Shown here: positions 3,481 through 64,000 of the stretch, in pieces
How positions within the stretch are numbered: position 1 is the first letter of the stretch
How the letters are laid out: every line of letters begins with the position of its first letter
Origin: Phorcus lineatus
Lineage: Eukaryota; Mollusca; Gastropoda; Trochida; Trochidae
Direction of reading: 5' to 3'
NCBI GenBank assembly: GCA_921293015.1
Contig: OV121085.1
Span: forward strand, 24,751,911-24,815,910
Length of the DNA stretch: 64,000 bases
Translations under genes and position numbers: made by a program
The notes under the pieces: model-generated
Told to the model about the DNA's origin: nothing
Databases searched by the model: none
The model's input: only the letters and a program-made list of their open reading frames with translations

Positions 3481-3551
3481 CGATACAAAAATTGACGAAA
3501 CTATCAGTAATACACATGGTACAAAGATGTGGTGGCGACTAGTTAAAAACT
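3481..3551 (+). pseudogene. Left piece of the CR1-like LINE ORF2 split by the 11.4-kb element
   Basis: The segment reads KIDETISNTHGTKMWWRLVKN. Its W-W motif and spacing match KNWWKLVNNYMK in the related copy at ~20915. The coding frame stops abruptly at 3551 where the foldback element begins. It continues in the same frame at 14962 with YMKTNSF. Removing the element and one copy of the flanking duplication gives the continuous reading LVKN-YMKT. Confidence 0.75.
3545..3551. repeat. Target-site duplication, left copy (AAAAACT)
   Basis: The same heptamer lies immediately right of the element at 14955-14961. Because neighbouring bases also match, the duplication could be read as 5 to 8 bp depending on the assumed first base of the terminal repeat. 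Seven bp gives fully symmetric ends. Confidence 0.8.
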
Positions 3552-3580
3552 AGGGTCTGTGAAGTTGGCAAACAGTTCCC
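3552..3580 (+). repeat. Left terminal inverted repeat, 29 bp
   Basis: Identical over 29 bases to the reverse complement of 14926-14954. The next base differs (G versus A) and similarity then continues through the 46-bp repeats. Confidence 0.9.
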
Positions 3581-3833
3581 GGTTCCCAGTTCCTTATTCA
3601 AATTGTGAAGTTGGCAAACAGTTCCCGGTTCCCAGTTCCTTATTCAAATTGTGAAGTTGGCAAACAGTTCCCAGTTCCCAGTTCCTTATTCAAATTGTGA
3701 AGTTAGCAAACAGTTCCCAGTTCCCAGTTCCTTATTCAAATTGTGAAGTTAGCAAACAGTTCCCAGTTCCCAGTTCCTTATTCAAATTGTGAAGTTGGCA
3801 AACAGTTCCCAGTTCCCAGTTCCTTATTCGCTG
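3558..3833 (+). repeat. Left array of six 46-bp tandem repeats
   Basis: Units start at 3558, 3604, 3650, 3696, 3742 and 3788, exactly 46 bp apart. Each begins TGTGAAGTTGGCAAACAG (or AGTTAGCAAAC) followed by a triple CAGTTCC-type motif and TTATTCAAAT. The start of each unit equals both the terminal repeat and the first ~22 bp of each 191-bp monomer deeper in the arm. This suggests that one protein-binding site has been multiplied. Confidence 0.9.
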
Positions 3834-6800
3834 ACGGACTCACTGTAATTTATCCCTATATTATCCCTTTAAGATGGATACATGTAAATGGAATAAGTAT
3901 ATGTTAGGGCTGCCAAAACTGTTCGTATACACAAAAGATCACTGTCGTACACGCTCGCATAGCTAAATACTGAGTTATCATAGGCGTTTTGAACTGTATG
4001 CTGAATGTGTGATGTTGGAGTCCAGTTCCCTATTCGACTTTGCTCTCGCTAACTCCCGTTTCAGAATAGATAAGTTTATCAGGGAATAAGTATATTATAG
4101 GACTGCCTTAAGTCTACCTATAACCAAAAGATCACTGTCATAACCGCTCGCATAGCAATACACTGACCCCATTAATTATGGCGTTTTGAACTGTTTGCTG
4201 AATGTGTGAAGTTAGCATACAGTTCCCTATTCGATTTTGAACTCTCTAATGCCCGTTTCAGAACAGATAAGTTTATCTTGAAATATGTATATGTTAGGTC
4301 TGTCTGAAATCTACCTATAACCAAAAGATCACTGACATAAGCGCTCGCATAGCAACACACGGAGCTCAGTATAGGCGTTTTGAATTTTACTGTGAAGTTG
4401 GCAAACAGTTCCTTATTCGACCTTGCTCTCGCTAACTCCCGTTTCAGAATAGATAAGTTTATCAGGGAATAAGTATATTATAGGACTGCCTAAAGTCTAC
4501 CTATAGCCAAAAGATCACTGTCATAACCGCTCGCATAGCTACATTCTGAGCTTATTATTTATGGCGTTTTGAACTGTTTGCTGAATGTGTGAAGTTAGCA
4601 TACAGTTCCCTATTCGATTTTGCACTCGCTAACGCCCGTTTTAGAAAAGATAAGTTTATCATGGAATAAGTATATTGTAGGTCTGCCTAAAGTCTACCAA
4701 TACACAAAATATCACTGTCATAAACGCTCGCATAGCTATATACTGAGCTCATTATAGGCGGCTTGAATTTTACTGTGAAGTTGGCAAACAGTTCCTTATT
4801 CGACCTTGCACTCGCTAACGCCCGTTTCAGAACGGATACGTTTATCAGGGAATAAGTATATTATAGGACTGCCTAAAGTCTACCTATAACCAAAAGATCA
4901 CTGTCATAACCGCTCGCATAGCAATACACTGACCCCATTATTTATGGCGTTTTGAACTGTTTGCTGAATGTGTGAAGTTAGCATACAGTTCCCTATTCGA
5001 TTTTGCACTCTCTAATGCCCGTTTCAGAACAGATAAGTTTATCTTGAAATATGTATATGTTAGGTCTGTCTGAAATCTACCTATAACCAAAAGATCACTG
5101 ACATAAGCGCTCGCATAGCAACACACGGAGCTCAGTATAGGCGTTTTGAATTTTACTGTGAAGTTGGCAAACAGTTCCTTATTCGACCTTGCTCTCGCTA
5201 ACTCCCGTTTCAGAATAGATAAGTTTATCAGGGAATAAGTATATTATAGGACTGCCTAAAGTCTACCTATAACCAAAAGATCACTGTCATAACCGCTCGC
5301 ATAGCAATACACTGACCCCATTATTTATGGCGTTTTGAACTGTTTGCTGAATGTGTGAAGTTAGCATACAGTTCCCTATTCGATTTTGCACTCTCTAATG
5401 CCCGTTTCAGAACAGATAAGTTTATCTTGAAATATGTATATGTTAGGTCTGTCTGAAATCTACCTATAACCAAAAGATCACTGACATAAGCGCTCGCATA
5501 GCAACACACGGAGCTCAGTATAGGCGTTTTGAATTTTACTGTGAAGTTGGCAAACAGTTCCTTATTCGACCTTGCTCTCGCTAACTCCCGTTTCAGAATA
5601 GATAAGTTTATCAGGGAATAAGTATATTATAGGACTGTCTAAAGTCTACCTATAACCAAAAGATCACTGTCATAACCGCTCGCATAGCTACATTCTGAGC
5701 TTATTATTTATGGCGTTTTGAACTGTTTGCTGAATGTGTGAAGTTAGCATACAGTTCCCTATTCGATTTTGCACTCGCTAACGCCCGTTTTAGAAAAGAT
5801 AAGTTTATCATGGAATAAGTATATTGTAGGTCTGCCTAAAGTCTACCAATACACAAAATATCACTGTCATAAACGCTCGCATAGCTATATACTGAGCTCA
5901 TTATAGGCGGCTTGAATTTTACTGTGAAGTTGGCAAACAGTTCCTTATTCGACCTTGCACTCGCTAACGCCCGTTTCAGAACGGATACGTTTATCAGGGA
6001 ATAAGTATATTATAGGACTGCCTAAAGTCTACCTATAACCAAAAGATCACTGTCATAACCGCTCGCATAGCAATACACTGACCCCATTATTTATGGCGTT
6101 TTGAACTGTTTGCTGAATGTGTGAAGTTAGCATACAGTTCCCTATTCGATTTTGCACTCTCTAATGCCCGTTTCAGAACAGATAAGTTTATCTTGAAATA
6201 TGTATATGTTAGGTCTGTCTGAAATCTACCTATAACCAAAAGATCACTGACATAAGCGCTCGCATAGCAACACACGGAGCTCAGTATAGGCGTTTTGAAT
6301 TTTACTGTGAAGTTGGCAAACAGTTCCTTATTCGACCTTGCTCTCGCTAACTCCCGTTTCAGAATAGATAAGTTTATCAGGGAATAAGTATATTATAGGA
6401 CTGTCTAAAGTCTACCTATAACCAAAAGATCACTGTCATAACCGCTCGCATAGCTACATTCTGAGCTTATTATTTATGGCGTTTTGAACTGTTTGCTGAA
6501 TGTGTGAAGTTAGCATACAGTTCCCTATTCGATTTTGCACTCGCTAACGCCCGTTTTAGAAAAGATAAGTTTATCATGGAATAAGTATATTGTAGGTCTG
6601 CCTAAAGTCTACCAATACACAAAATATCACTGTCATAAACGCTCGCATAGCTATATACTGAGCTCATTATAGGCGGCTTGAATTTTACTGTGAAGTTGGC
6701 AAACAGTTCCTTATTCGACCTTGCACTCGCTAACGCCCGTTTCAGAACGGATAAGTTTATCAGGGAATAAATATATTATAGGACTGCCTAAAGTCTACCT

Positions 6801-7150
6801 ATAACCAAAAGATCACTGTCATAAACACTCGCATAGCTATATATTGAGCTCATTAAAGGCGTTTTGAATTTTACTGTGAAGTTGGCAACCAGTTCCTTAT
6901 TCGAGTGTGCACTCGCTAACACCGGTTTCAGAATAGGTAGGTTTATTTTGGGATAAGTATATTGTAGGTCTGTCTGAAGTCTACCTATAACCAAAAGATC
7001 ACTGACATAAACGCTCGCATAGCTATTTACTTATTTACTTAAAGGAATTTTACTGTGAAGTTGGCAACCAGTTCCCTATTCGAATTTGCTCTGTCTAACA
7101 ACCGTTTCAGAATAGTTAAGTTGATCATGGAATAAATCTATGTTAGATCT
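3834..7150 (+). repeat. Left arm: ~17 tandem ~191-bp monomers with higher-order structure
   Basis: Each monomer runs TGTGAAGTTRGCA...CAGTTCC...CGTTTCAGAA...GATAAGTTTATC...GTCTACCTATAACCAAAAG...CGCTCGCATAGC. Two monomer types alternate to give 383-bp dimers. Landmarks recur at 4172, 4938, 5321 and 6087, giving periods of 766 and 1149 bp, i.e. two and three dimers. This is higher-order amplification as in centromeric satellites. The short minus-strand open frames in the monomers are by-products of the repeat. The innermost monomers (6850-7150) are the most diverged. Confidence 0.9.
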
Positions 7151-7581
7151 TTCTCATCTCACCAAAATAAAAGGGTAAATAAACGTTGGTGTGGTTATAA
7201 GACATCATTTTGGATGTTTGAATTTGTTGCTGTCTTTTTCTCGCTGCAAGTTCATTATCATTCTCTCCGAACAAAGTTAGAACCTTCATAAATTCCTATA
7301 TCATCTTTGTCATGATACGAATGTTATCGGCCAATATATGTAGAAACCTGGTTTGAAGGTTTCAAAGTTAGTTGTGCAATCAGCGACGTCGTTTCAAAAT
7401 GTATCATTCAAAGTGTGTAATTAAGTTATTTCCGTACTCATGCGAAAAGCTAAACCTGATTTCAATATACACTTGCACTTTGTGTCTTTTTTTACAGAAA
7501 ACATTCGCCTCAATTAGCAACATCCTGCTACATCAGCGTATTTTTCTTTGCCTAGCTCCATCATATACCCTGATATCCTTT

Positions 7582-7720
7582 GGCCTTAAACGCTCGTATC
7601 GCTAAATATAACAAGCCAATGCAATAGCGGCACCACCCGGATTAGAATTCTAACAAATGTCAATGTAGGCGATAAATAGCCGTGAATAGACAGCCGTAAG
7701 CGATACGAACGTTTTAGGTC
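7582..7720. repeat. Small MITE-like hairpin element
   Basis: The ends are inverted copies: AAACGCTCGTATCGCT at 7588-7603 and AGCGATACGAACGTTT at 7699-7714 match with one mismatch. Weaker pairing extends outward to 7582 and 7720. The ~95 bp between the arms has no coding signal. No clear target duplication was found. Confidence 0.55.
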
Positions 7721-8014
7721 GAGGATAGCAGGGTTTATGAAGGAGCTAGGCGGAGACAAATAGCAGGATGATCTAGCAATTTCATAATTGCATAGGCCTG
7801 TTTGACAACACATACATTTTTCAAACATTTGGTGTTTTCTTAGACTGTTCTAGGCAAAGTAGTTTAAAGAGAGGTAATTAAGTGACTGGTTTCGTACTAT
7901 TAACAGGTCTGTGTTTCTTTCACTTTGCAAGCTCACACTTTCTTTACAACTTTCAGTAACATTATATACATATTTGTTACCTTTTCCTGTAATTTTACAT
8001 GGAAATTGTTAATT

Positions 8015-8110
8015 CTAAAACGTCCGATATATTGGATATGTTCGGAAGAACGTATCGTGGTGTTCCTGTATTGCAATATACCGATATACCAATAATACTG
8101 CACCCTTACT
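8015..8110 (-). repeat. Short dispersed repeat, copy 1
   Basis: The reverse complement contains AAGGGTGCAGTATTATTGG, ATCGGTATATTGCAATACAG and CCAATATA. The same elements occur in the same order on the plus strand at about 30985-31095. It is non-coding and may be a SINE or MITE fragment. Confidence 0.55.
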
Positions 8111-11028
8111 ATATACCCCGGTCTTAAAGCTATCCCCGCCTTCCTCCCTTAGGCTGTAAGGCAGGGGTATGATAATCAGCCATTTGGTCTTTTTAGACTT
8201 ACCATTTGCGCCATGAAATTGAAACCTGTTAAGACGAGTTAGGTATATCATTGAATAACCATACGTTATGTTTGTCCAAGGTTTATATAGACTGGAAAAC
8301 AGTTTCCTTTTCAAATAAAATACTCGCTGGAACATTACAGAAATAACATATATTTGGTCTGTTTAAATTAAAATGTACACCAAATCAATATATAGGTCAA
8401 TGTATGGGTTTTTGCATTGGTTTTGTTTGACTTACTGGTTAACCAAACAATCTTTATAACCATAAAAATGCAAAAAAAAATAAAAAATAGTGTGGGTGAC
8501 CAATTTGTTTATTCAGTGTGCCTCTAACATATGTTATGAAACATATGAAAATTGAGCCGTCCTTGTAAATCACAATTCTTAGTATCGTTCATACACAAGG
8601 TGATATTTAACTACTGAAACTGTGAACGTATAAGTACATTAGACAATATGTCATGTCACAAAATTTGAGGAAAATTGATAAAACCATATCATATTCCTTA
8701 AATAAAAAAGGTAAATAAAAAACATAATGCAGGTTACTTTTTAAAAACAACAACACATATGTAGCATTAACGGTTTCTTGAAAATAGAACAATGAAGATT
8801 TGAGGGTGGACACCATGCCATGGCCATATGGAGTTAAAGATGAAAACTAATTCCTGCAGACGACACCAGACAATGGACAACCAGATCTGATGGGTCAAGG
8901 AAAAATTTCTACATTTGATAATTTGTTCAGTGATCAACATGTTTATTTAACACATGGTTTTCAACATCATTTACATCTTGTAATAAAGGAAACAACTTAT
9001 CTTATCATATTGTTTCAAAAATGAATTTTCTCCTCAAGGCTAAACAATATCATTTAAGATAGATTCTTTAGCTCATTTATTTTGTCTGCATTTTTCCTCA
9101 GATTGAAATAATTCAACATGTAAATGAATTTTTATTAGAAATTTATGACCATATATTTCAATTAGAGAATTGATGCATGATGTACGGGATTTAATCTGGG
9201 ACAAAGATAAACTTACTGCGTGATTTCCCTACAACTACAGTTGTTGATCATGTTATCATAATACACAATCAGATTGAATTATGAACTTGACCAAAAAAGA
9301 TACAATTAAATATTTTGAAATAAAATCTAATCATGACGGACCTTCATGTAATTATGAATTTATATACATAAGTTGAATTAAATCAGATGATTTCTTTATA
9401 AATTAAAAGTGAGGCCTGACCGGAAGATGTTTACTAACACAGTAATGAGTCTTACCAAGAAATGCAAATTTCGAAAATTACGAAATGTTATATAAGACAC
9501 AGCTTCATATTTTTGTCTATAAAGTTGATCACAATTAAATGAGCAGTTTAGAAGATGAGAGCCAGACAGGCTTTAAAAACAGTGATCATTTTTTTGTAAA
9601 AAAGAGCTAACTTTTACAAAAATGTTTTCAAAATTTGTTTACCTTTGTGCTATTATGAATCTCAGTTCCAAATGGGACACAAATTTAAAAAAAAAATTAC
9701 AGGAAAGGCGTTGGACAAGATTTGATATAGTTCCTTGACAGTGTCCCAAATATTTTTTGACGAATGCCAAATGTACCAAAATAATTGTCTTAATTGTTAA
9801 TTAGATCACATCCTTACGTTATTATGCATGTATCACCAAATTTGATAAAACTTGGATGTTTAGGTTAGAGATTAAGAGCTGCACTGGACTTGTTAACTAG
9901 TTGTTGGACTAGTTTTCTTACTAATTGCCCAAAATATATATTTTCAGAGTAGTTAATGAGCCTAACACGATATTTAACAGACATGACAAAGTTTATCAAC
10001 AGACTGGTAAATGATAAATAAGCAACCTGAAAACACATTGTGTAACACAAACTGCGGCAGTAGTCAAGTTAATCACTGGATTAAGATAGCTGCTGTCGTT
10101 TTTGCCCTCCAGGCTGTCAGCAAAATTTGAACATTTCCGATTATATCGTAGTTCTTAATATACTTCCGATGTTTTGAAATCAACTTTATAACCTGAATAC
10201 GTTCATTTTGTTAAATAACTTACAAGGTAGATTTACTGAGTGAGGATCGTTAGTAATGTCGATATAATATGCATGATCTTTGCAGGCATTCGTTGTATGT
10301 AGGAAATATTGCGTGCGCTAGTTATTTTGATATAAATGTCTCTGAAACGATGTTATAAAGTCGTCAATGATATCCTTTCTTTTCGAACCTTTCATTTTCA
10401 AGAATTTCTTATGATTGCGGTTGATAGATAGGATCATTGAAAATAATCTTTTGGCACAGGTCTTTATAAAAAAAATATAAATTGTAAAATTAACACGAAG
10501 AGTTCTGCTTAAGGGAAACAAATGATTATAAATTTAGCAGGCTAGCAAAATTCAAATGTTAATAAGAAACTGTGGTACAAAGACCACAAGTTAAAACAAA
10601 GTTACTTCAACAGAGCACACTTCGATTTACAAAATATGATAATGAGCAAAATGCAAGCGTAAATTGCATTCTTAAGTAAATTCCACGATTAAGTTGGATA
10701 TGAAGCTGAAGATGGAAATACGGTAAATAAACGACTCTTAACCCCATAAGTAAAGGTCATGTATTGGTGACATTTCTCTTTTTTTGTGGAAATAGAAGTT
10801 ACACAAACTTCAACTGTATTGTAACTTCACACAGTCTGCAAACCTAAAAGAGCCCCGAATATAGATATGCGAGCGACAAATACACTTGTTTGCATGAGTA
10901 GATTTCAAGCAGATTTATTTACCATCTCCATTATACACTTATGATGAACCCCTCCAAAATATGCTTTAATTGATGACATTAAATAATAAATTTCATGCGA
11001 AGAGGTAGGCAAGCGACCCTTCATCAAT

Positions 11029-11042
11029 CCCCCCCCCCCCCC
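11029..11042 (+). repeat. Poly-C run of 14
   Basis: Uninterrupted C tract in otherwise AT-rich sequence; a likely site of sequencing length error. Confidence 0.9.
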
Positions 11043-11459
11043 TTTAAAAATGTGCAAATTTATGCAGACATGGGAATATGGGAATACATCAGATAAAAGA
11101 AGACAGTGAGTGTCAAACAGTGCATGGTAGTCCGGTAAAGGGTTCTGTGTATTAAGGTATTGCTGGCGATTCTAGTGATGTGTTGTCGGCGTCAAACAAG
11201 TATACTCCTGGCGGTGAACCATAACGGGTCTCCGTGTATGTCAGTGTAACGTTACACTCTCGCTCTGCGGTTGCGCAATCCAATTATGCATCATAGCTCT
11301 GCGAAGTTTCTCCCTCCTCGAGGTCGAGTGGACTTTGATGTCGCCGGCTGGAATCTCTGTGCTCTGTCTCACGTTATTGCGATCGAGGCCATCTGCACGT
11401 CGCGTATGAACTCCCTTTTTGCATGTCTAAGGACACAGGCCATGGTTCTGGGAAACAAG

Positions 11460-14400
11460 AGCCAAGTCGAATAGGGAACTGGTCACTAGCTTCACACATT
11501 AAGCATACAGTTCAATACAGCAATAATAAGCTCAGAATGTATACGAGCGTATATGACAGTAACCTTTTGTTTTTAGGTAGGCTATAGGCAGATCTAAAAA
11601 ATACTTATTCCATGATAAACCTATCCATCCAGAAACTAGTGATAGCGATTGCAAAGTCGAATAAGGAACTGTTTGCCAACTTCACAGTAAAATTCAAAAC
11701 GCCTATAATGAGCTCCGTGTGTTGCTATGCGAGCGCTTATGTCAGTGATCTTTTGGTTATAGGTAGACTTTAGGCAGACCTATAATATACATATACCAAG
11801 ATAAACTTATCTGTTCTGAAACGGGCGTTAGCGAGAGCAAAGTCGAATAGGGAACTGTATGCTAACTTCACAGTAAAATTCAAGCCGCCTATAATGAGCT
11901 CCGTGTGTTGCTATGCGAGCGCTTATGTCAGTGATCTTTTGGTTATAGGTAGACTTTAGGCAGACCTATAATATACATATACCAAGATAAACTTATCTGT
12001 TCTGAAACGGGCGTTAGCGAGAGCAAAGTCGAATAGGGAACTGTATGCTAACTTCACAGTAAAATTCAAGCCGCCTATACTGAGCTCCGTGTGTTGCTAT
12101 GCGAGCGCTTATGTCAGTGATCTTTTGGTTATAGGTAGACTTTAGGCAGACCTATAATATACATATACCAAGATAAACTTATCTGTTCTGAAACGGGCGT
12201 TAGCGAGAGCAAAATCGAATAGGGAACTGTATGCTAACTTCACACATTCAGCAAACAGTTCAAAACGCCATAAATAATGGGGTCAGTGTATTGCTATGCG
12301 AGCGGTTATGACAGTGATCTTTTGGTTAAAGGTAGACTTTAGGCAGACCTACAATATACTTATTCCCTGATAAACTTATCTATTCTGAAACGGGAGTTAG
12401 CGAGAGCAAGGTCGAATAAGGAACTGTTTGCCAACTTCACAGTAAAATTCAAGCCGCCTATAATGAGCTCCGTGTGTTGCTATGCGAGCGCTTATGTCAG
12501 TGATCTTTTGGTTATAGGTAGACTTTAGGCAGACCTATAATATACATATACCAAGATAAACTTATCTGTTCTGAAACGGGCGTTAGAGAGTGCAAAATCG
12601 AATAGGGAACTGTATGCTAACTTCACACATTCAGCAAACAGTTCAAAACGCCATAGATAATGGGGTCAGTGTATTGCTATGCGAGCGGTTATGACAGTGA
12701 TCTTTTGGTTATAGGTAGACTTTAGGCAGTCCTTTAATATACTTATTCCCTGATTAACTTATCTATTCTGAAACGGGAGTTAGCGAGTGCAAGGTCGAAC
12801 AAGGAACTGTTTGCCAACTTCACAGTAAAATTCAAGCCGCCTATAATGAGCTCCGTGTGTTGCTATGCGAGCGCTTATGTCAGTGATCTTTTGGTTATAG
12901 GTAGACTTTAGGCAGACCTATAATATACATATACCAAGATAAACTTATCTGTTCTGAAACGGGCGTTAGCGAGGGCAAAGTCGAATAGGGAACTGTATGC
13001 TAACTTCACACATTCAGCAAACAGTTCAAAACGCCATAAGTAATGAGGTCAGTGTATTGCTATGCGAGCAGTTATGACAGTGATCTTTTGGTTATAGGTA
13101 GACTTTAGGCAGTCCTATAATATACTTATTCCCTGATAAACTTATCTATTCTGAAACGGGAGTTAGCGAGAGCAAAGTCGAATAAGGAACTGTTTGCCAA
13201 CTTCACAGTAAACTTCAAAACGCCTATAATGAGCTCCGTGTGTTGCTATGCGAGCGCTTATGTCAGTGATCTTTTGGTTATAGGTAGACTTTAGGCAGAC
13301 CTATAATATACATATACCAAGATAAACTTATCTGTTCTGAAACGGGCGTTAGCGAGAGCAAAATCGAATAGGGAACTGTATGCTAACTTCACACATTCAG
13401 CAAACAGTTCAAAACGCCATAAATAATGGGGTCAGTGTATTGCTATGCGAGCGGTTATGACAGTGATCTTTTGGTTAAAGGTAGACTTTAGGCAGACCTA
13501 CAATATACTTATTCCCTGATAAACTTATCTATTCTGAAACGGGAGTTAGCGAGAGCAAGGTCGAATAAGGAACTGTTTGCCAACTTCACAGTAAAATTCA
13601 AGCCGCCTATAATGAGCTCCGTGTGTTGCTATGCGAGCGCTTATGTCAGTGATCTTTTGGTTATAGGTAGACTTTAGGCAGACCTATAATATACATATAC
13701 CAAGATAAACTTATCTGTTCTGAAACGGGCGTTAGAGAGTGCAAAATCGAATAGGGAACTGTATGCTAACTTCACACATTCAGCAAAGAGTTCAAAACGC
13801 CATAAATAATGGGGTCAGTGTATTGCTATGCGAGCGGTTATGACAGTGACCTTTTGGTTATAGGTAGACTTTAGGCAGTCCTATAATATACTTATTCCCT
13901 GATAAACTTATCTATTCTGAAACGGGCGTTAGCGAGTGCAAAGTCGAATAAGGAACTGTTTGCCAACTTCACAGTAAAATTCAAAACGCCTATAATGAGC
14001 TCCGTGTGTTGCTATGCGAGCGCTTATGTCAGTGATCTTTTGGTTATAGGTAGACTTTAGGCAGACCTATAATATACATATACCAAGATAAACTTATCTG
14101 TTCTGAAACGGGCGTTAGAGAGTGCAAAATCGAATAGGGAACTGTATGCTAACTTCACACATTCAGCAAACAGTTCAAAACGCCATAAATAATGAGGTCA
14201 GTGTATTGCTATGCGAGCGGTTATGACAGTGATCTTTTGGTTATAGGTAGACTTTAGGCAGTCCTATAATATACTTATTCCCTGATAAACTTATCTATTC
14301 TGAAACGGGAGTTAGCGAGAGCAAAGTCGAATAAGGAACTGTTTGCCAACTTCACAGTAAAATTCAAAACGCCTATAATGAGCTCCGTGTGTTGCTATGC

Positions 14401-14721
14401 GAGCGCTTATGTCAGTGATCTTTTGGTTATAGGTAGACTTTAGGCAGACCTATGATATACATATACCAAGATAAACTTATCTGTTCTGAAACGGGCGTTA
14501 GAGAGTGCAAAATCGAATAGGGAACTGTATGCTAACTTCACACATTCAGCAAACAGTTCAAAATCGCCTATAATAACTCAGTATTTAGCTATGCGAGTGT
14601 GTACGACAGTGATCTTTTGTGTATACGAGGAGTTTTGGCAGACCTAACATATACTTATTCCATTTACATCAATCCATTCTGAAAGGGATAATACAGGGAT
14701 AAATTACAGTTAGTCCGTCAG
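11460..14721 (-). repeat. Right arm: ~17 inverted ~191-bp monomers in 383-bp dimers
   Basis: This arm is the reverse complement of the left arm. The landmark GAGCTCCGTGTGTTGC recurs at about 12464, 12847, 13230, 13613, 13996 and 14379, i.e. every 383 bp, preceded by a 190-bp step at 11891-12081. The number of monomers matches the left arm, but the copies differ in order, so the arms have been homogenised or amplified separately. Confidence 0.9.
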
Positions 14722-14948
14722 CGAATAAGGAACTGGGAACTGGGAACTGGTTGCCAACTTCACAATTTGAATAAGGAACTGGGAACTGGGAACTGGTTGC
14801 CAACTTCACAATTTGAATAAGGAACTGGGAACTGGGAACTGTTTGCCAACTTCACAATTTGAATAAGGAACTGGGAACTGGGAACTGTTTGCCAACTTCA
14901 CAATTTGAATAAGGAACTGGGAACTGGGAACTGTTTGCCAACTTCACA
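14722..14948 (-). repeat. Right array of five 46-bp repeats
   Basis: Five reverse-complement copies of the 46-bp unit seen at 3558-3833, each ending GCCAACTTCACA. The two outermost-arm units nearest the arm have GGTTGCC rather than GTTTGCC. One unit fewer than on the left. Confidence 0.9.
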
Positions 14949-14954
14949 GACCCT
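14926..14954 (-). repeat. Right terminal inverted repeat, 29 bp
   Basis: Perfect inverted match to 3552-3580. Followed directly by the second AAAAACT at 14955-14961. Confidence 0.9.
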
Positions 14955-16989
14955 AAAAACTATATGAAAACAAATTCTTTCAAATCATGTTTCCCGTCGA
15001 TTGTCTCAAATGATATAGTTTACAACAACGCCCAAGATATTGCAGATGTTATCAACACGTTTTTTACAGATCAATCAAAAGTTAGTGATCCAAACGCGGA
15101 CTTGCCTTATATCGCGCCGCGTGATATCGACCACCCTATGACATCTATAATAATTAGTAATGAAGATGTTAAGGACATTCTTCTGAGTTTAGATACTACA
15201 AAAGCGTCGGGACCTGATGGCATTGGCAATACTGTTCTTAAACTATGTTCTACATCCATAACCCCCCTGTTAGCAGAGTTATTTAATATCTCTCTCCGTA
15301 ATAAAACGTTCCCGTCGACTTGGAAGCTAGCTTCTGTAATTCCATTATATAAAAAAGGTAATGAACATGAATGTTCAAATTATAGACCAGTTGCTTTAAC
15401 TAGCTGTGTTGCAAAAGTTTTCGAAAAGTGTATATTCAAATATGTTTTTAATTTTCTAAGGGACAACAATGTTTTATCAAATTTGCAATCTGGATTTATG
15501 CCAGGCGATTCCACGGTAAATCAATTGACATATCTTTATAATTTCATCGCAAGTGCAGTCGACAGAGGAAAAGAAATAAGAGCCGTTTTTTGTGACGTAA
15601 GTAAAGCCTTTAATAAAGTTTGGCACAGGGGTATCATCCATAAACTTCATGCCTGTGGCATCCGAGGTGAACTCTTGGAATGGTTTCAAAGCTACTTACA
15701 CAACAGACTGCAAAAAGTTGTAATTAATGGGTATAGTTCAGAATATAAATCTGTAGAAGCTGGTGTCCTAGGACTCCTTCTTTTTATCATTTATATAAAT
15801 GATATTGAAGACGGGATAGATAGTAACATCCGTCTGTTTGCCGACGATACATCGATTTATGTAATAGTAGATGATCATTTTACAGCAGCCGCTACTATAA
15901 ATAACGACTTGGCTAAAATTTCAGACTGGGCAAGAAAATGGCAAGTTGATTTTAATCCTAGTAAAACCGAAAGTATTACATTCACAAGAAAAATGCATAA
16001 AATTGCTAAACCAAATTTAACTATGAATTGTGAAATTATTAAAGAAGTTGAAAGTCATAAACACCTAGGTATAACCCTTCAAAACGATTGTTCATGGAAA
16101 GTACATATCAATCACATGATAAAGAAAATCAGTCCAATGATCAATTGTCTGAGAAGTTTAAAATATCGTCTATCTCGAAAAACGCTTGATACATTATATA
16201 CGTCGTTTATCCTTCCCCTATTTGATTACTGCTGTCATATATGGGACAACTGCACATTTGAACAAGCCGTTATATTTGAAAACTTACATTTAGACGCGTT
16301 GCGAACTATTTGCGGCGCGGTACGCGGCACTAGTCATGATAAAATATATAAGGAAACATACCACAACCCTCTTAAGGATAGAAGGCGACGCTTTAAACTC
16401 ATTACTTTTTATAAAATGTATCATAATCTGGTACCAGACTACCTAAGTGATCTTATACCAGGACGAGTATTCGAACAAAGCAGCTACAATCTTAGAAATA
16501 GTTCCTCCATTCAAGCAATTAATTGTAGAACACAGAGATATGCTCAATCTTTCTTACCAAGTACTATTATGCTATGGAATTCCCTACCACATGAAATCAT
16601 CCACGCCCCTTCCATGAATCAGTTCAAAACAATGATAAATGAAACGGTTACAAAGAATAATTACAATTTAAGTTCAGGGTCTAGATTCTGTCAAGTCATC
16701 CATTGCCGCCTCAAGCTTGGCTGTACATAGCGATTTAAATGCGCAGAGATATCTTAGACACATATCCGAAAACCCCGGGTGCTCATGTGGCCACTCTTAT
16801 AAAGACGTGATTCACTATCTGTTTATTTGTCGGAAATATCAAAATTTAAGAATCAATATGTATTTTTATATTCATGGATTTGACATAATGACAGTTTTAT
16901 ACGGCAACGGTAATCTGACTATCCTGGAAAATAACAATATTCTTGAATCATTACACCATTTTATCAACACGAGTAAAATATTTTCTTAA
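14955..16989 (+). pseudogene. CR1-like LINE ORF2: reverse transcriptase and C-terminal Cys/His domain (right piece of split copy)
   Basis: The main open frame covers 14964-16730. It has the RT finger motif KASGPDGIGN, NYRPVALTS, QSGFMPGDSTVNQL, the first catalytic segment FCDVSKAFNKVWH and the second, LFADDTSIYV. After AGV it goes straight to LG: compared with AGVPQGSVLGP in the copy at 21720, five codons (PQGSV) are deleted in frame at ~15767. This likely kills the enzyme. The post-RT domain is present. Near 16725 a 4-bp insertion shifts the frame into 16717-16989, which carries the C-terminal CSCGHSYKDVIHYLFIC Cys/His motif typical of these LINEs. The 5' part lies left of the foldback element. 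Confidence 0.85.
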
Positions 16990-26524: not shown

Positions 26525-27181
26525 TTAAGTTCTAGAATTTAACCTCGGTGAAAACATTTTGATAAATCTGCTTTCTTTTGTTTCTAAAAGTTTATTGTTA
26601 TCAAAATTTAATTTATACATTGGGAAAACTGAAAATTGCCCGTTTCCACACTCAGCTAAATGTTTACTCAATGGAATTGTACGGTTTTTTGGGTGATTAA
26701 TCTGAGATCTGTGTAAATTCATGCGTAATTTTAACTTCATTTCAGTTTTTCCAATGTATTTTTCATTGCACCCAGAGCATGTGATGACATAAACAACATT
26801 TTTACTGTTACAATTAAGATTTTGTCTTACAGAAAACACTTTACTTTCATTCATATGTACAGAAGAGCCTATTATGATATTTTTACATGTAAGACAGCGT
26901 AAATCACCGCATTTAGATACAGTTGGTTCTAACTCACTTGAATCAAACTTGGAAGAAGTTAATAACTTACGAAGATTTTTAGGTTGTTTAAGACTGTTCA
27001 CAATTTTTGATTTACACAAAACTTTTTCCATTTCTTTACTTAGATGTAAAATAGGTAGGTTTTTGTCAATTATTGCAGCAGCGCTCTGATGGTTAGGGTT
27101 AAAGGTGGAAACCAACGGGACAATGTTTTTATCACACAGTTTATTAGATTTAGGATCTCTGAGGCGACTTTGATCTAACAC
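26525..27181 (-). pseudogene. Penelope-like retroelement, C-terminal linker and GIY-YIG endonuclease
   Basis: A 218-codon open frame. Residues ~20-85 contain PLVSTFNP and LRKLLTSS, the linker seen after RT in Penelope-like elements. CGDLRCLTCKN is a Cys-rich segment. VVYVITCSGCNEKYIGKTE is the catalytic GIY-YIG-type opening, followed by R-x-N-L-H-R-S and PLSKHLAECGNGQF. The endonuclease makes the target nick. The RT domain that should precede it is missing, so the copy is 5'-truncated, although the remaining frame is undamaged. It lies inside the I-type LINE gap (26038-27785). Confidence 0.8.
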
Positions 27182-51729: not shown

Positions 51730-54095
51730 AAAGTATAGTATAGATCCCCCCTCTTACTTTATATAAGTATGTACATCAAACCTATAATAGACCCCCCTCT
51801 TACTTAATATAAGTATGTACATCAAACCCATGATAGACCCCCCTCTTACTTAATATATGTATGTACATCAAACCCAGTATAGATTCGCCCCCTATTAACA
51901 TGTACATAAAAAACCCAGTAAAGATCCCCCTCCTTACTTTATATAGGTATGTACATCAAACACATTATAGAATCGCCCCCGATAAGCGTATACATCAAAC
52001 CCAGTATAGATCTCCCCTATTACTTTATATAGGTATGTATATCAAACACATTAGAGATTCGCACCCTTTTAGCATGTACATCAAACCGAGTAGAGATCCC
52101 CCTTTTACTTTACAATGTATATAATTATGTAAATGAAGCCCTTTATAGCTTCGCCCCCTATGAGCATGTTCATCAAACCTACTATAGATCTCCCTCTTAC
52201 TTTATATAGGTATGTACATCAATTGTAGATTCGCCCCCTATGAGCATTTACATAATACCCAGTATAGAGCACCCCTCTTATTATATATACGAATGTACAT
52301 CAAACCCAGTATAGATTAGCCTCCTATGAGCATGTACATCAAACCAAGTAATGATCCCCCCTCTTACTTTATTTAGGTCTGTACATCAAACCCAATAGAG
52401 ATCCCCTTTCTTACTTTATATAGGTATGTACATCAAACCCATTAACATTCGCCCCCTAGGAGCATGTACATCAAACCCAGCATAGATACCCCTCTTACTT
52501 TATATAGGTATGTACATCAAACCCTTTATAGATTCGCCCCATATGAGCATGTACATCAAACCAAGGACAGAGCCCCCTCTTACTTTATATAGGTATGTAC
52601 ATCAAACCTAGTATAGATCCCCCATCTAACTTTATATAGTTATGTACATCAAAGCCAGTATAGATCCCTCCTCTTACATTATATAAATATGTACATCAAA
52701 ACCAGTATAGATTAACATGTACATCATGCAAACCCAGTAAAGATCCCCCTTCTTACTTCATATAAATATGTACATTAAACCTATTACAGATTCACCCCCT
52801 ATAAACATGTACATCAAACCCAGTAGAGATCCCCCCTCTTACTTTGTATAAGTATGTACATCAAACCCAGTATAGATCCCCCGCTTACTTTATATTTTAC
52901 TTTACTTGATATAGGTATTTACATCAAACCTTTCATAGATTCGCCCCCTATGTGCATGTACATCAAACCCAGTATAGATCCCCCTTTTACTTTATAAAGG
53001 TATGTAAATCAAACCTAGTATTGATCCCCAATCTAACTTTATATAGTTATGTACATCAAACCCATTAGATCCCCGCTCTTACTTTATATAAATATGTACA
53101 TCAAACCCAGTATAGATCACCCTTTTACTTTACAATGTATATAGTTATGTAAATGAAACCCTTTATAGATTCGCCCCATATGAGCATGTTCATCAAACCT
53201 TCTATAGATCTCCCTCTTACTTTATATAGGTATGTACATAAAACCTTTTATAGATTCGCCCCCTATGAGCATGTACATCAAACCGAGTAGAGATCCCCCT
53301 TTTACTTTACAATGTATATAGTTATGTAAATGAAGCCCTTTATAGCTTCGCCCCCCTATGAGCATGTTCATCAAACCTACTATAGATCTCCCTCTTACTT
53401 TATATAGGTATGTACATCAAACCCAGTATAGATCACCCTTTTACTTTACAATGTATATAGTTATGTAAATGAAACCCTTTATAGATTCGCCCCATATGAG
53501 CATGTTCATCAAACCTTCTATAGATCTCCCTCTTACTTTATATAGGTATGTACATAAAACCTTTTATAGCTTCGCCCCCCTATGAGCATGTTCATCAAAC
53601 CTACTATAGATCTCCCTCTTACTTTATATAGGTATGTACATAAAACCTTTTATAGATTCGCCCCCTATGAGCATGTACATCAAACCCAGTATAGATCCCC
53701 CTTTTACTTTACAATGTATATAGTTATGTAAATGAAGCCCTTTATAGCTTCGCCCCCCTATGAGCATGTTCATCAAACCTACTATAGATCTCCCTCTTAC
53801 TTTATATAGGTATGTACATCTAACCAATTGTAGATTCGCCCCCTATGAGCATTTACATAATACCCAGTATAGAGCCCCCCTCTTATTATATATACGAATG
53901 TACATCAAACCCAGTATAGATTCGCCCCCTATGAGCATGTACATCAAACCGAGTAGAGATCCCCCTTTTACTTTACAATGTATATAGTTATGTAAATGAA
54001 GCCCTTTATAGATTCGCCCCCTATGAGCATGTTCATCAAACCTACTATAGATCTCCCTCTTACTTTATATAGGTATGTACCAGTATAGATTCGCC
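51730..54095 (+). repeat. Satellite array, ~44-bp monomer, about 54 copies
   Basis: Monomers share ATGTACATCAAACCC and alternate between a TATAGATCCCCCTCTTACTT type and a TAGATTCGCCCCCTATGAGC type. Landmark spacings (85, 138, 176, 178 and 264 bp) are all multiples of about 44 bp. Dimers and longer blocks are duplicated towards the right end. Open frames in it are repeat artefacts. Confidence 0.9.
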
Positions 54096-62342: not shown

Positions 62343-64000
62343 TTATCACTGACAAAGACAATTTTGTGAATTTTGATGAAACTTTCCGCCCATCTGAACA
62401 TTATATCTGAACATTATATCGAGTTTGCTGATGGAAGCAGGACAAATGGAATTGTTCAAGGCAAGGGTGAAGCTTGTATGTCTTTGTGTGATGTCAGTGG
62501 TAAACAACACAAAGTGATGCTAGAGAATGCATTATATGTTCCCTCGTTTAACCAGGACATTTTGTCAGTGCAAGCAGCAACAAACAAGGGAGCAACCATC
62601 AACTTCAATCCAGACAGTGCTTGTCTGATAGCTCAAGATGGTACTACATTCAACATCACAAATCATGGTAAACTTTATTATTTGAACAACACTGTTACAT
62701 CAAAATGTGTGACCCACTCAGCTCAGGATTGGCACAGAATTCTTGGACATTGCAACATGAATGACGTCATGAAGTTGGAAGATACAGTCAATGGCATGAA
62801 GTTTTCAGGGAAAACACAGAGTGACTTATGTGAAACTTGTGCTAAAGGGAAGATGTTTAGATGGTTTGATAGGGACCCTGATAAACGAGCGACAAAGATT
62901 TTAGAGATGGTTCACTGTGACTTGGCAGGACCAATTGAGCTGTTAGCCCATGGTGATTTTTTGTCATTTTCTGTCATTCGTAGATGATTATTCAGGCATC
63001 GTCATGTTGTATCTCTTGAAACAGAAGAGTGACACACCAGCAGCTACTGAAAAGTTCTTCGCAGACATTTCACCGTTTGGAAAAGTTGTCACAATGAGAA
63101 CAGACAATGGGACTGAGTTCACCAGCGAAAGTTCAGGAAGATCCTTATCAGAAACAAGATACATCAACAGATGTCAGCCCCTTATTCACCTCACCAGAAA
63201 GGCACAGTTGAAAGGGCTTGGCGTTCTCTATTTGACATGGCGAGATGTCTCATCATTGAAGCAAAGTTACTAAAGACTCTCTGGTCATATGTCATCATGA
63301 CATCAGCTTACATCAGAAACCGTTGTTACAACAAGAGGCTTGAGATGACGCCATTCGAGACTATGACAGGCCAGAAGTCGAACCTATCAAAAATGCATGT
63401 TTTCGGAACAGCTTGTTTTGCATATGTTCAAGGGGCAAAGAAACTTGACAATCGCAGTGAGAAGGGGATTTTTGTCGGATATGATCGTGAAAGTCCAGCC
63501 CATTTCCCTCAACAGCATGAAGTCAAAAGACTGAGATGTGTCAAATTCACTGAAAAATTTACAGAAACTGTAAGTAAACCTGACTATGAGGAAGACGTGA
63601 CAGTGTACAAGAGATCTGAGGCTGAGGAAACCACAGAACAGGAAGTAGAAAATCGGCAAGCCGGTAACCAAGTTTTGGCTGAAGAAAATCAAAAACAGGG
63701 AGAAGTGACAACTCGAAGATACTCGAGACGTGAAACAGTAAGACCGAAGCGCATGGAAGACTATGTTAGTGGAGCAGACTTGTCTGAATCTGAGGTGGAG
63801 GATAGTGCAATGTATATTGTCCACTACTGCTACAAGGTTGCAAGAATCCCAACTACATATGAATCATCGCTTGATGCAGACAAGTGGTCTCATGCTATGG
63901 AAGAAGAAATGACAGCATTACAGGATAATGAGACATTTGAAATCACTAACCAACCCGCAGACAGAACAACAGTAGGCGGAAGATGGGTATTTGACATTAA
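62343..64000 (+). pseudogene. Ty1/copia element: protease end, integrase and start of RT (runs off window)
   Basis: YIEFADGSRTNGIVQGKGEA and LENALYVPSFNQDILSV are the protease-integrase linker. WHRILGHCNMNDVMKL with CETCAKGKM is the HHCC zinc domain of integrase. The catalytic residues appear as MVHCDLAGP, MRTDNGTEF and KGTVERAW. Frame changes occur near 62955 and 63130. From 63132 the frame is open to the window end and passes GIFVGYDRESP into KWSHAMEEEMTALQDNETFE and GRWVFDI, the start of the copia-type RT. The gag-PR-IN-RT order identifies Ty1/copia. The rest of RT, RNase H and the right LTR lie beyond 64000. Confidence 0.85.

Follow-up and report, generated by a model that had tools for sequence, protein, structure and literature searches.

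Tandem repeats are known to arise from foldback elements. As far as the cited sections of its description go, a close precedent for the element reported here is Tetris of Drosophila virilis, a non-autonomous foldback element that was tied to a satellite, whose ends consist of an outer domain and tandem repeats of about 220 bp, with 37 bp of the outer domain recurring in the repeats (about 80%); it is flanked by 8–10-bp duplications, and its authors suggested a Mutator affiliation (PMC4079207). Tm1 of root-knot nematodes, in the parts of its description drawn on here, has composite repetitive ends of variable length and 8–10-bp (mostly 9-bp) duplications, and it comprises both MITE-like members and, in one group, members with a FLYWCH-MULE (Phantom) transposase (PMC3169594). 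Galileo of Drosophila likewise has long, repetitive inverted ends and arms of variable length, and in one of its subfamilies the transposase-binding sites are repeated inside tandem repeats, according to the cited portions of two reports (PMC3688188, PMC3573991).

We analyzed a 64,000-nt stretch of the Phorcus lineatus genome (the window; GCA_921293015.1, OV121085.1, 24,751,911–24,815,910; all positions below are in window numbering) that contains an element at 3553–14953 with the following features.

3544–3552, no strand: left target site duplication TAAAAACTA, 9 bp
3553–3580, plus strand: left terminal inverted repeat, 28 bp, perfect, GGGTCTGTGAAGTTGGCAAACAGTTCCC
3558–3829, plus strand: outer array of six 46-bp repeats, with the tip motif at the start of each
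3834–7135, plus strand: left arm, 17 units of 174–197 bp (L00–L16), mostly alternating 197/186; innermost motif at 7054
7136–11457, no strand: core, without coding evidence
10812–10843, minus strand: degenerate monomer junction in the core (87.5% over 32 bp)
11458–14718, minus strand: right arm, 17 inverted units (R00–R16); innermost motif, with 6 mismatches, ends at 11496
14723–14948, minus strand: outer array of five 46-bp repeats
14926–14953, minus strand: right terminal inverted repeat, 28 bp, perfect
14954–14962, no strand: right target site duplication TAAAAACTA, 9 bp
14964–16730, plus strand: interrupted host LINE reverse transcriptase frame, downstream part (RVT_1, E 1.2e-25)
Tip form of the element family: GGGTCTGTGAAGTTGGC

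The tips form a perfect 28-bp inverted repeat starting GGGTCTGTGAAG..., and the copy in the window is bounded by the 9-bp duplication TAAAAACTA. A preliminary description had read perfect inverted ends of 29 bp and a 7-bp duplication. The ends are indeed perfect and inverted, but their outermost A belongs to the duplication, and the 7 bp are the middle of the 9; we dropped both lengths after comparison with other copies, because 22 of 29 tip pairs across the genome carry a perfect 9-bp duplication. The same description held that a LINE frame is continuous across the empty site, and this is confirmed: when the flanks are joined the frame stays open over 676 codons, and another LINE copy within the window is collinear across the joint (tblastx query 1398–1670, joint at 1500, 33% identity). 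Its other structural counts also hold, namely six 46-bp repeats inside the left end and five inside the right, about 17 monomers per arm in inverted orientation (17 units each when edge units are included) and a 4.3-kb core.

The tip recurs across the genome, with 78 matches at two mismatches or fewer and none for the reversed tip used as a control. Paired by eye, the matches yield 29 inverted pairs, 23 with AAAC tips (spanning 8.4–43.7 kb) and six with AACC tips (93 bp to 10.3 kb), which answers the call of the preliminary description for other copies sharing both ends. Most of them are flanked by duplications of about 9 bp that follow no fixed sequence, as in Mutator-like elements: these are perfect in 22 of the 29 pairs and match at eight of nine positions in three, while two pairs lack a match and another two show one only on the assumption that the tip has changed. 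The window core is whole in two same-tip copies, C19 (99.4%) and C11 (98%), and two AACC-type copies carry parts of it (long pieces at 87–92%), so that all or part of one core is common to the five copies read whole. An old, degenerate 2.95-kb tip pair at C19:42.80 Mb retains monomer remains at 70–76%; it has no matching duplication, and 901 bases from its interior gave no Pfam match over the cut-off. Sampling of 160 kb at arbitrary places found no tip, arm or LINE match, and core-repeat fragments in five stretches. The tip and monomer had no match in viral, prokaryote and phage collections, the window had none in Rfam at gathering thresholds, and the tip strings turned up in six open papers whose listing points to unrelated subjects. 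The element family is real, mobile and dispersed, and the reading of the locus as a foldback transposon, which the preliminary description had proposed, is strongly supported by the 29 pairs and their 22 perfect duplications.

These observations also bear on whether a host inverted satellite, a segmental duplication or an assembly artefact could mimic a transposon. Exact 765-bp duplications in the arms are of a kind that assemblers can create, and arm length rests on the assembly. Against such an origin stand the 29 tip pairs, 22 of them with perfect 9-bp duplications of differing sequence, and the LINE frame restored at the empty site. We regard this explanation as refuted for the element, with exact arm lengths still dependent on the assembly, and give it next to no credence.

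A second alternative is that the element belongs to the P superfamily, as a foldback element of Galileo type whose target duplication measures 7 bp. Galileo ends are long and internally repetitive, and their repeats contain THAP binding sites (PMC3688188); Galileo duplications measure 7 bp in the portion of the report cited (PMC3573991), and the window copy alone can be read as having a 7-bp duplication. However, 22 of the 29 pairs are identical over 9 bp, of which the 7 bp are only the middle part, and the tips start with GGG. We therefore rejected P/Galileo membership on duplication length, 9 versus 7 bp, and consider it very improbable. As to a THAP/P transposase, the core of this one copy gave no Pfam match.

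The 9-bp duplication together with the GGG tips argues against P/Galileo and fits Mutator/Foldback. The preliminary description had been unable to match the termini to a superfamily, partly as a result of its 7-bp reading; the corrected ends now point to Mutator/Foldback. Taken as a whole, the element is probably a non-autonomous DNA transposon of Mutator-like, Foldback type that moves by cut and paste. On their own, duplication length and GG tips are also compatible with another superfamily that makes 8–9-bp duplications, such as Merlin. We judge such a non-Mutator affiliation improbable: foldback elements with 8–10-bp duplications have been assigned to Mutator, in the sections cited (PMC3169594, PMC4079207), and MULE transposases are plentiful in this genome, MULE being the sole transposase family searched genome-wide. 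In its favor, no autonomous copy was found.

The search for coding capacity covered both the copies and the genome. Translated in six frames, the core of the window copy matched nothing in Pfam at E ≤ 0.1; one 87-aa core frame, when scanned by itself, had a weak ArsD match (E 0.0042) that stayed below the cut-off. In the other four full copies, C11, C19, C16 and C2, stop-free frames do not exceed 127 aa, and none of the five copies read whole has a long open frame. The genome contains at least 150 MULE domains that pass the Pfam cut-off, often within open frames, and by eye none of the 150 scored (of 521 candidates) lies between these tips, so the autonomous relative envisaged by the preliminary description, with a transposase between the same inverted repeats, did not appear among them. 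One 470-aa frame combines FLYWCH and MULE domains, the make-up reported for Phantom/Tm1 transposases in the part of the report cited (PMC3169594). We rejected it as a relative, because the 32-bp inverted repeat that encloses it differs in sequence; a 364-aa MULE frame was likewise set aside, its longest surrounding inverted repeat being 18 bp and also of another sequence. Neither of the two MULE elements read has an evident 9-bp duplication at its ends. Tm1, as described in the sections cited, has a transposase-bearing member, whereas none was found for the window family. The absent transposase bars a firm MULE assignment without excluding it, because non-autonomous copies lack a transposase by definition. 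Under the Mutator-like reading, a MULE transposase encoded elsewhere would bind the tip motif and mobilize the element in trans.

The tip motif also heads nearly every arm monomer, a feature that the preliminary description had overlooked. A 22-bp pattern allowing three mismatches or fewer has 43 matches, 22 on the plus strand in the left arm and 21 on the minus strand in the right, and none in the rest of the window or in 100 shuffles. The motif is missing from units L00 and R00 and has six mismatches in L01. We infer that the arms may have been born from repeated duplication of a tip-proximal segment and that they could now offer dozens of candidate binding sites, presented in one orientation from each end. 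In the passages cited, Galileo has two extra sites in a 1.2-kb end, whereas each window arm holds more than 20 motif copies as putative sites; the redundant motif of Tm1 is about 14 bp, whereas the window family repeats monomers of about 190 bp in higher-order units. The family makes the idea that repeated tip motifs serve as transposase-binding arrays concretely testable.

Conversely, the arms could be passive passengers, that is, tandem arrays grown by host recombination on a transposon that needs its tips only. A 93-bp AACC-type pair (L030) consists of one motif per end, without arms, and is flanked by a perfect 9-bp duplication, so the arms may be dispensable, although this copy may have arisen by deletion after insertion. 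All 23 AAAC pairs span at least 8.4 kb, and no tip-only AAAC pair was found genome-wide at two mismatches or fewer. Selection on the motif in all monomers was not supported, as its conservation relative to the rest of the monomer is not significant: variable sites number 3/30 in the motif versus 38/156 elsewhere in A-type monomers (P 0.06) and 7/30 versus 26/167 in B-type monomers (P 0.90). In the two innermost, degenerate units, however, the motif is spared (1/60 versus 64/336, in a post hoc test). Finally, 47 of 72 monomers in copy C11 are closest only to monomers of their own arm, which indicates local expansion. On balance, we take passive arms to be a serious possibility but lean somewhat against it.

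Monomers of 186 and 197 bp mostly alternate in the window copy and form a 383-bp dimer. Ungapped identity at lags of 383, 766 and 1149 bp is.910,.945 and.958 in the left arm and.913,.902 and.895 in the right. The strong 766/1149-bp periodicity of the left arm stems from blocks of 765 and 748 bp that are duplicated exactly; exact duplications in this arm stand at lags 766 and 1149, and the right arm has a 558-bp one at lag 1149. The periodicity of 383, 766 and 1149 bp in the preliminary description therefore stands for 383 bp in both arms and for the longer periods, as a strong signal, in the left arm only, with clean 766-bp units present in other copies. Outer-arm sequences of L020, L021 and L024 reach ungapped identities of.995,.990 and.997 at lag 766 (584 positions) and lower ones at lag 383 (.886,.895 and.886), and in two of these copies near-equal dimer matches lie exactly 766 bp apart, at C37:25.49 (four) and C7:4.22 (three). 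The tetramer pattern is not general across copies: in L022, and in C11 over its complete arms, identity is lower at lag 766 than at 383, and in L017 and L019 it is low at both, in ungapped comparisons in which indels lower identity. Higher-order repeat structure is supported as a 383-bp dimer in the window copy and a 766-bp tetramer in the outer arms of three other copies. The claim of satellite-like, higher-order arms is borne out accordingly, by the dimer here and by tetramers in at least two other copies.

Arm length varies widely among the three same-tip copies read whole. Counted as spacings of 180–205 bp, the two arms hold 6 and 10 monomers in C19, 15 and 16 in the window copy and 33 and 39 in C11, where they reach about 6.8 and 8 kb. 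The arms may lengthen and shorten in multiples of the 383-bp dimer through unequal exchange or repair-coupled copying, and recent growth or shrinkage mostly within one arm would produce the 766- and 1149-bp higher-order patterns. In the cited parts of its description (PMC4079207), Tetris has inverted repeats of up to 1.7 kb and three structurally complete copies, in contrast to the 23 large tip pairs of one genome here, and we found there no mention of higher-order dimers or tetramers. These three copies have cores of 98–99.4% identity and between 6 and 39 monomers per arm, and comparison of copies reveals different stages of higher-order build-up, namely dimer, tetramer and mixed 766/1149 spacing. 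Because the insertions are independent replicates of one another, the way in which higher-order satellite structure arises and grows could be traced stepwise.

Copies at C1:35.41 and C1:38.07 differ in their duplications and flanks, yet each has 13 listed left-arm dimer matches with equal tip offsets and bit scores over about 6 kb. Because array positions are shared despite the different flanks, the long arrays travelled: whole satellite-like arrays appear to have moved around the genome with the element, and they would be carried to new sites because they belong to it. By eye, the dimer matches listed lie inside tip-bounded elements, with no free-standing array among them (29 of 78 candidate places scored), and the earlier suggestion of a seed for satellite DNA finds no support in these places. 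Tetris repeats, in the cited account, also form free satellite arrays, whereas none was seen among the matches listed here; its authors thought that large arrays may have disrupted transposition, whereas the long arrays of this family appear to have moved. Higher-order structure and the movement of very long arms are what is new relative to Tetris as described in those sections, and the latter suggests that an element can move in spite of very long arms.

These features allow a further, tentative reading that we consider possible but rather doubtful: the arms would be mobile higher-order satellites, in which arrays of transposase-recognition monomers become organized into dimers and tetramers within a transposon, probably by transposition-coupled gap repair and unequal exchange, and spread as finished multi-kilobase arrays. 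If so, neither a centromere nor a constant place on a chromosome would be required for higher-order satellite structure.

Relationships among monomers differ between copies. In a nearest-neighbor test that omits C19.r (10 monomers) and L017 (7), which are one and the same locus, 24 of the 31 window monomers are nearest or tied to a monomer of another copy and 7 only to their own arm. All 43 monomers of L019–L024 are nearest or tied to another copy, a result favored by the use of the outer part of one arm only. Within the window, a profile search found no monomer match outside the arms, and one weak blast match lies in the core.

The longest exact match between the two window arms is 129 bp, as against 765, 748 and 558 bp within arms, and recent gene conversion between the arms of this copy is accordingly unsupported. 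An older exchange is possible, given that B monomers have no fixed difference between arms and A monomers have one. The spacing at the ends of C11 is equal at both ends, which is also compatible with an older exchange between arms.

The foldback element is flanked by a target duplication and comprises a core between two mirror-image arms, with the following features.

Features of the window element
3553-14953: the element
Both ends: perfect inverted terminal repeat of 28 bp, GGGTCTGTGAAGTTGGCAAACAGTTCCC
Abutting both ends: target duplication, TAAAAACTA
Just inside the tips: 46-bp repeats, six at the left end and five at the right end
Internal to the 46-bp repeats: arm units, 17 per arm, mainly of 197 and 186 bp in alternation, in mirror-image order
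Between the arms: core of 4.3 kb, without coding evidence

Joining the flanks restores a 676-codon LINE frame; another LINE copy in the window aligns collinearly over the joint of the empty site at 33% identity. At 7539-7762 and 7865-8108 the core contains an inverted pair of ~65 bp (83%), which may be a small nested element, and a repeat that recurs at 31244-30988 of the window (68%).

We searched the entire assembly (957.8 Mb, 74 contigs) for a 27-bp tip with at most two mismatches and obtained 40 forward and 38 reverse matches, versus none for the reversed control. Pairing by eye gave 29 inverted pairs, all read at both ends, and 20 unpaired tips; other copies therefore share both ends, in line with the preliminary description of the element as possibly mobile. 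That description gave the duplication as 7 bp. In the window copy alone, the base adjoining GGG can be assigned to either the tip or the duplication, and the flanks of the other copies settle the length at 9 bp instead. The 9-bp flanks are identical in 22 of 29 pairs and match at eight of nine positions in three more, and the duplicated sequence varies by site. The pair at C2:37.86 (contig:Mb) has a 9-bp duplication only when its tip is read with an additional base, and that at C5:1.04 has a partial duplication next to a mutated tip. The compared flanks of the remaining two pairs, C7:25.39 and C29:15.09, contain no matching duplication, which recombination between copies could explain.

The family includes two tip types. 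AAAC-tip pairs (n = 23), with which the window copy groups, range in length from 8.4 to 43.7 kb (median, 13.5 kb; sum, 342 kb), and AACC-tip pairs (n = 6) from 93 bp to 10.3 kb. We read five copies in full (window, C19, C11, C16 and C2:7.41). The window core is present in C19 (8.4 kb) at 99.4% and in C11 (21.9 kb) at 98%; the AACC-type copies C16 (5.6 kb) and C2:7.41 (7.6 kb) contain it in parts, with long pieces at 87-92% and one core segment in repeated copies about 61-64 bp apart. This segment, ~49 bp long and single in the window core, recurs every 61-64 bp in the AACC-type stretches L028 and L029 (cores) and L076. No stop-free frame exceeds 127 aa in C11, C19, C16 or C2. Relative to the window copy, the C11 core (L025-L027) carries an insert of ~2.6 kb, with no frame above 72 aa. 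The longest pair (G000:C13:13179517-13223204; 43.7 kb, AAAC tip) has a perfect 9-bp duplication; of two 2-kb samples of its interior, one resembles an AACC-type core (86.6% over 1.8 kb) and the other has no match among the five whole-read copies; the pair could enclose the missing transposase or a nested insertion. At the other extreme, L030 (G000:C2:15569030-15569230) is a 93-bp element consisting of two tips alone, with a perfect 9-bp duplication.

Members of the family have inserted independently with 9-bp duplications and common ends; their arms vary in length, and different insertions have array positions in common. The copies at C1:35.41 and C1:38.07 differ in flanks and duplications, and their lengths are 767 bp apart; among the matches listed, each has 13 left-arm dimer matches at identical tip distances (702 to 6068 bp) and with identical bit scores. 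The outer 2 kb of five of seven other arms (L017, L020, L021, L023 and L024) is 97.8-99.4% identical to the window copy (L019, 95.6%; L022, 95.1%), and four of the seven alignments are gap-free. In nearest-neighbour counts, which leave out two rows from one locus, 24 of 31 window monomers are at least as close to another copy as to their own arm, and 47 of 72 C11 monomers have only own-arm monomers as closest. Thus, on sequence comparison, the arrays seem both to travel and to grow locally. A search with the 383-bp dimer (at least 375 matches; 29 of 78 candidate places scored) placed none of the listed matches, checked by eye, outside tip-bounded elements.

Higher-order units differ among copies. 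At lag 766 the left arm of the window copy has an exact duplication of 765 bp, and at lag 1149 its left and right arms have exact duplications of 748 and 558 bp, respectively; exact matches between arms reach at most 129 bp. Over 584 positions, the ungapped identity of the L020, L021 and L024 outer arms is.995,.990 and.997 at lag 766, versus.886,.895 and.886 at lag 383. The two lags (383 and 766) are nearly equal in the window copy (.929,.942) and L023 (.923,.932); identity drops from.919 to.887 in L022 and is low at both lags in L017 and L019. Among the matches listed, dimers recur at 766-bp intervals in C37:25.49 (four matches, 673-682 bits) and C7:4.22 (three, 669-682 bits), and their spacing in C1:35.41 mixes 766 and 1149. 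The C11 left arm contains a series of exact duplications (765, 643 and 550 bp) at lag 766, and its overall ungapped identity declines as lag grows.

Each 46-bp repeat begins with the tip motif, as does every monomer unit except the numbered units L00 and R00, where the motif is absent, and L01, where it has six mismatches. At three or fewer mismatches it occurs 43 times (left arm, 22 on +; right arm, 21 on -), versus none in 100 shuffles. The 46-bp repeat corresponds to approximately the first 28 bp of the B monomer plus two 7-bp steps. The arms therefore resemble the end of the element itself, copied repeatedly.

We consider it likely that the arms would serve as transposase-binding arrays. 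Galileo provides a measured precedent, in which its THAP domain binds sites in tandem repeats that lie within its long ends (PMC3688188), and Tetris has a 37-bp stretch common to the outer domain and the 220-bp repeats (PMC4079207). Conservation of the motif shows no significant excess over the remainder of the monomer; the motif is preserved in the two inner units with the most divergence, which were picked post hoc. The 93-bp two-tip element has a perfect 9-bp duplication, so arms may not be needed.

We propose that a MULE would mobilise the element in trans. At least 150 MULE domains in the genome exceed the Pfam cut-off (150 of 521 candidates scored), and many of those listed lie in open frames. 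None of the listed domains, as judged by eye, lies between the element's tips or within 100 kb of unpaired tips. An exact 13-base tip search gave at least 104 matches, versus 13 in the reversed control, and no listed match is close to a listed domain by eye. Separately, L078 (G000:C7:59221600-59226100) contains a 470-aa transposase frame with FLYWCH and MULE domains inside a 32-bp perfect inverted repeat. An identical score of 53.0 bits in 25 of the listed domains suggests a recently amplified autonomous MULE family. As a same-tip relative this frame was rejected, its 32-bp ends being of different sequence, as was a second MULE frame, whose ends also differ.

Foldback ends built with tandem repeats are of a known kind, represented by Tetris, Tm1 and Galileo; Tetris and Tm1 have duplications of 8-10 bp, and Galileo has binding sites located in its repeats. 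In the open-access literature searched, including passages of PMC8268682, we found no description of a foldback or inverted-repeat transposon with higher-order arms.

Elsewhere, the window contains a complex tandem array at 51737-54080, with units of ~46 and ~86 bp plus longer periods (GTACATCAAACCC), and two remains of mobile elements: a frame with a GIY-YIG domain at 26525-27181 (-) and a frame with gag_pre-integrase and Pol_BBD domains at 62373-62987 (+).
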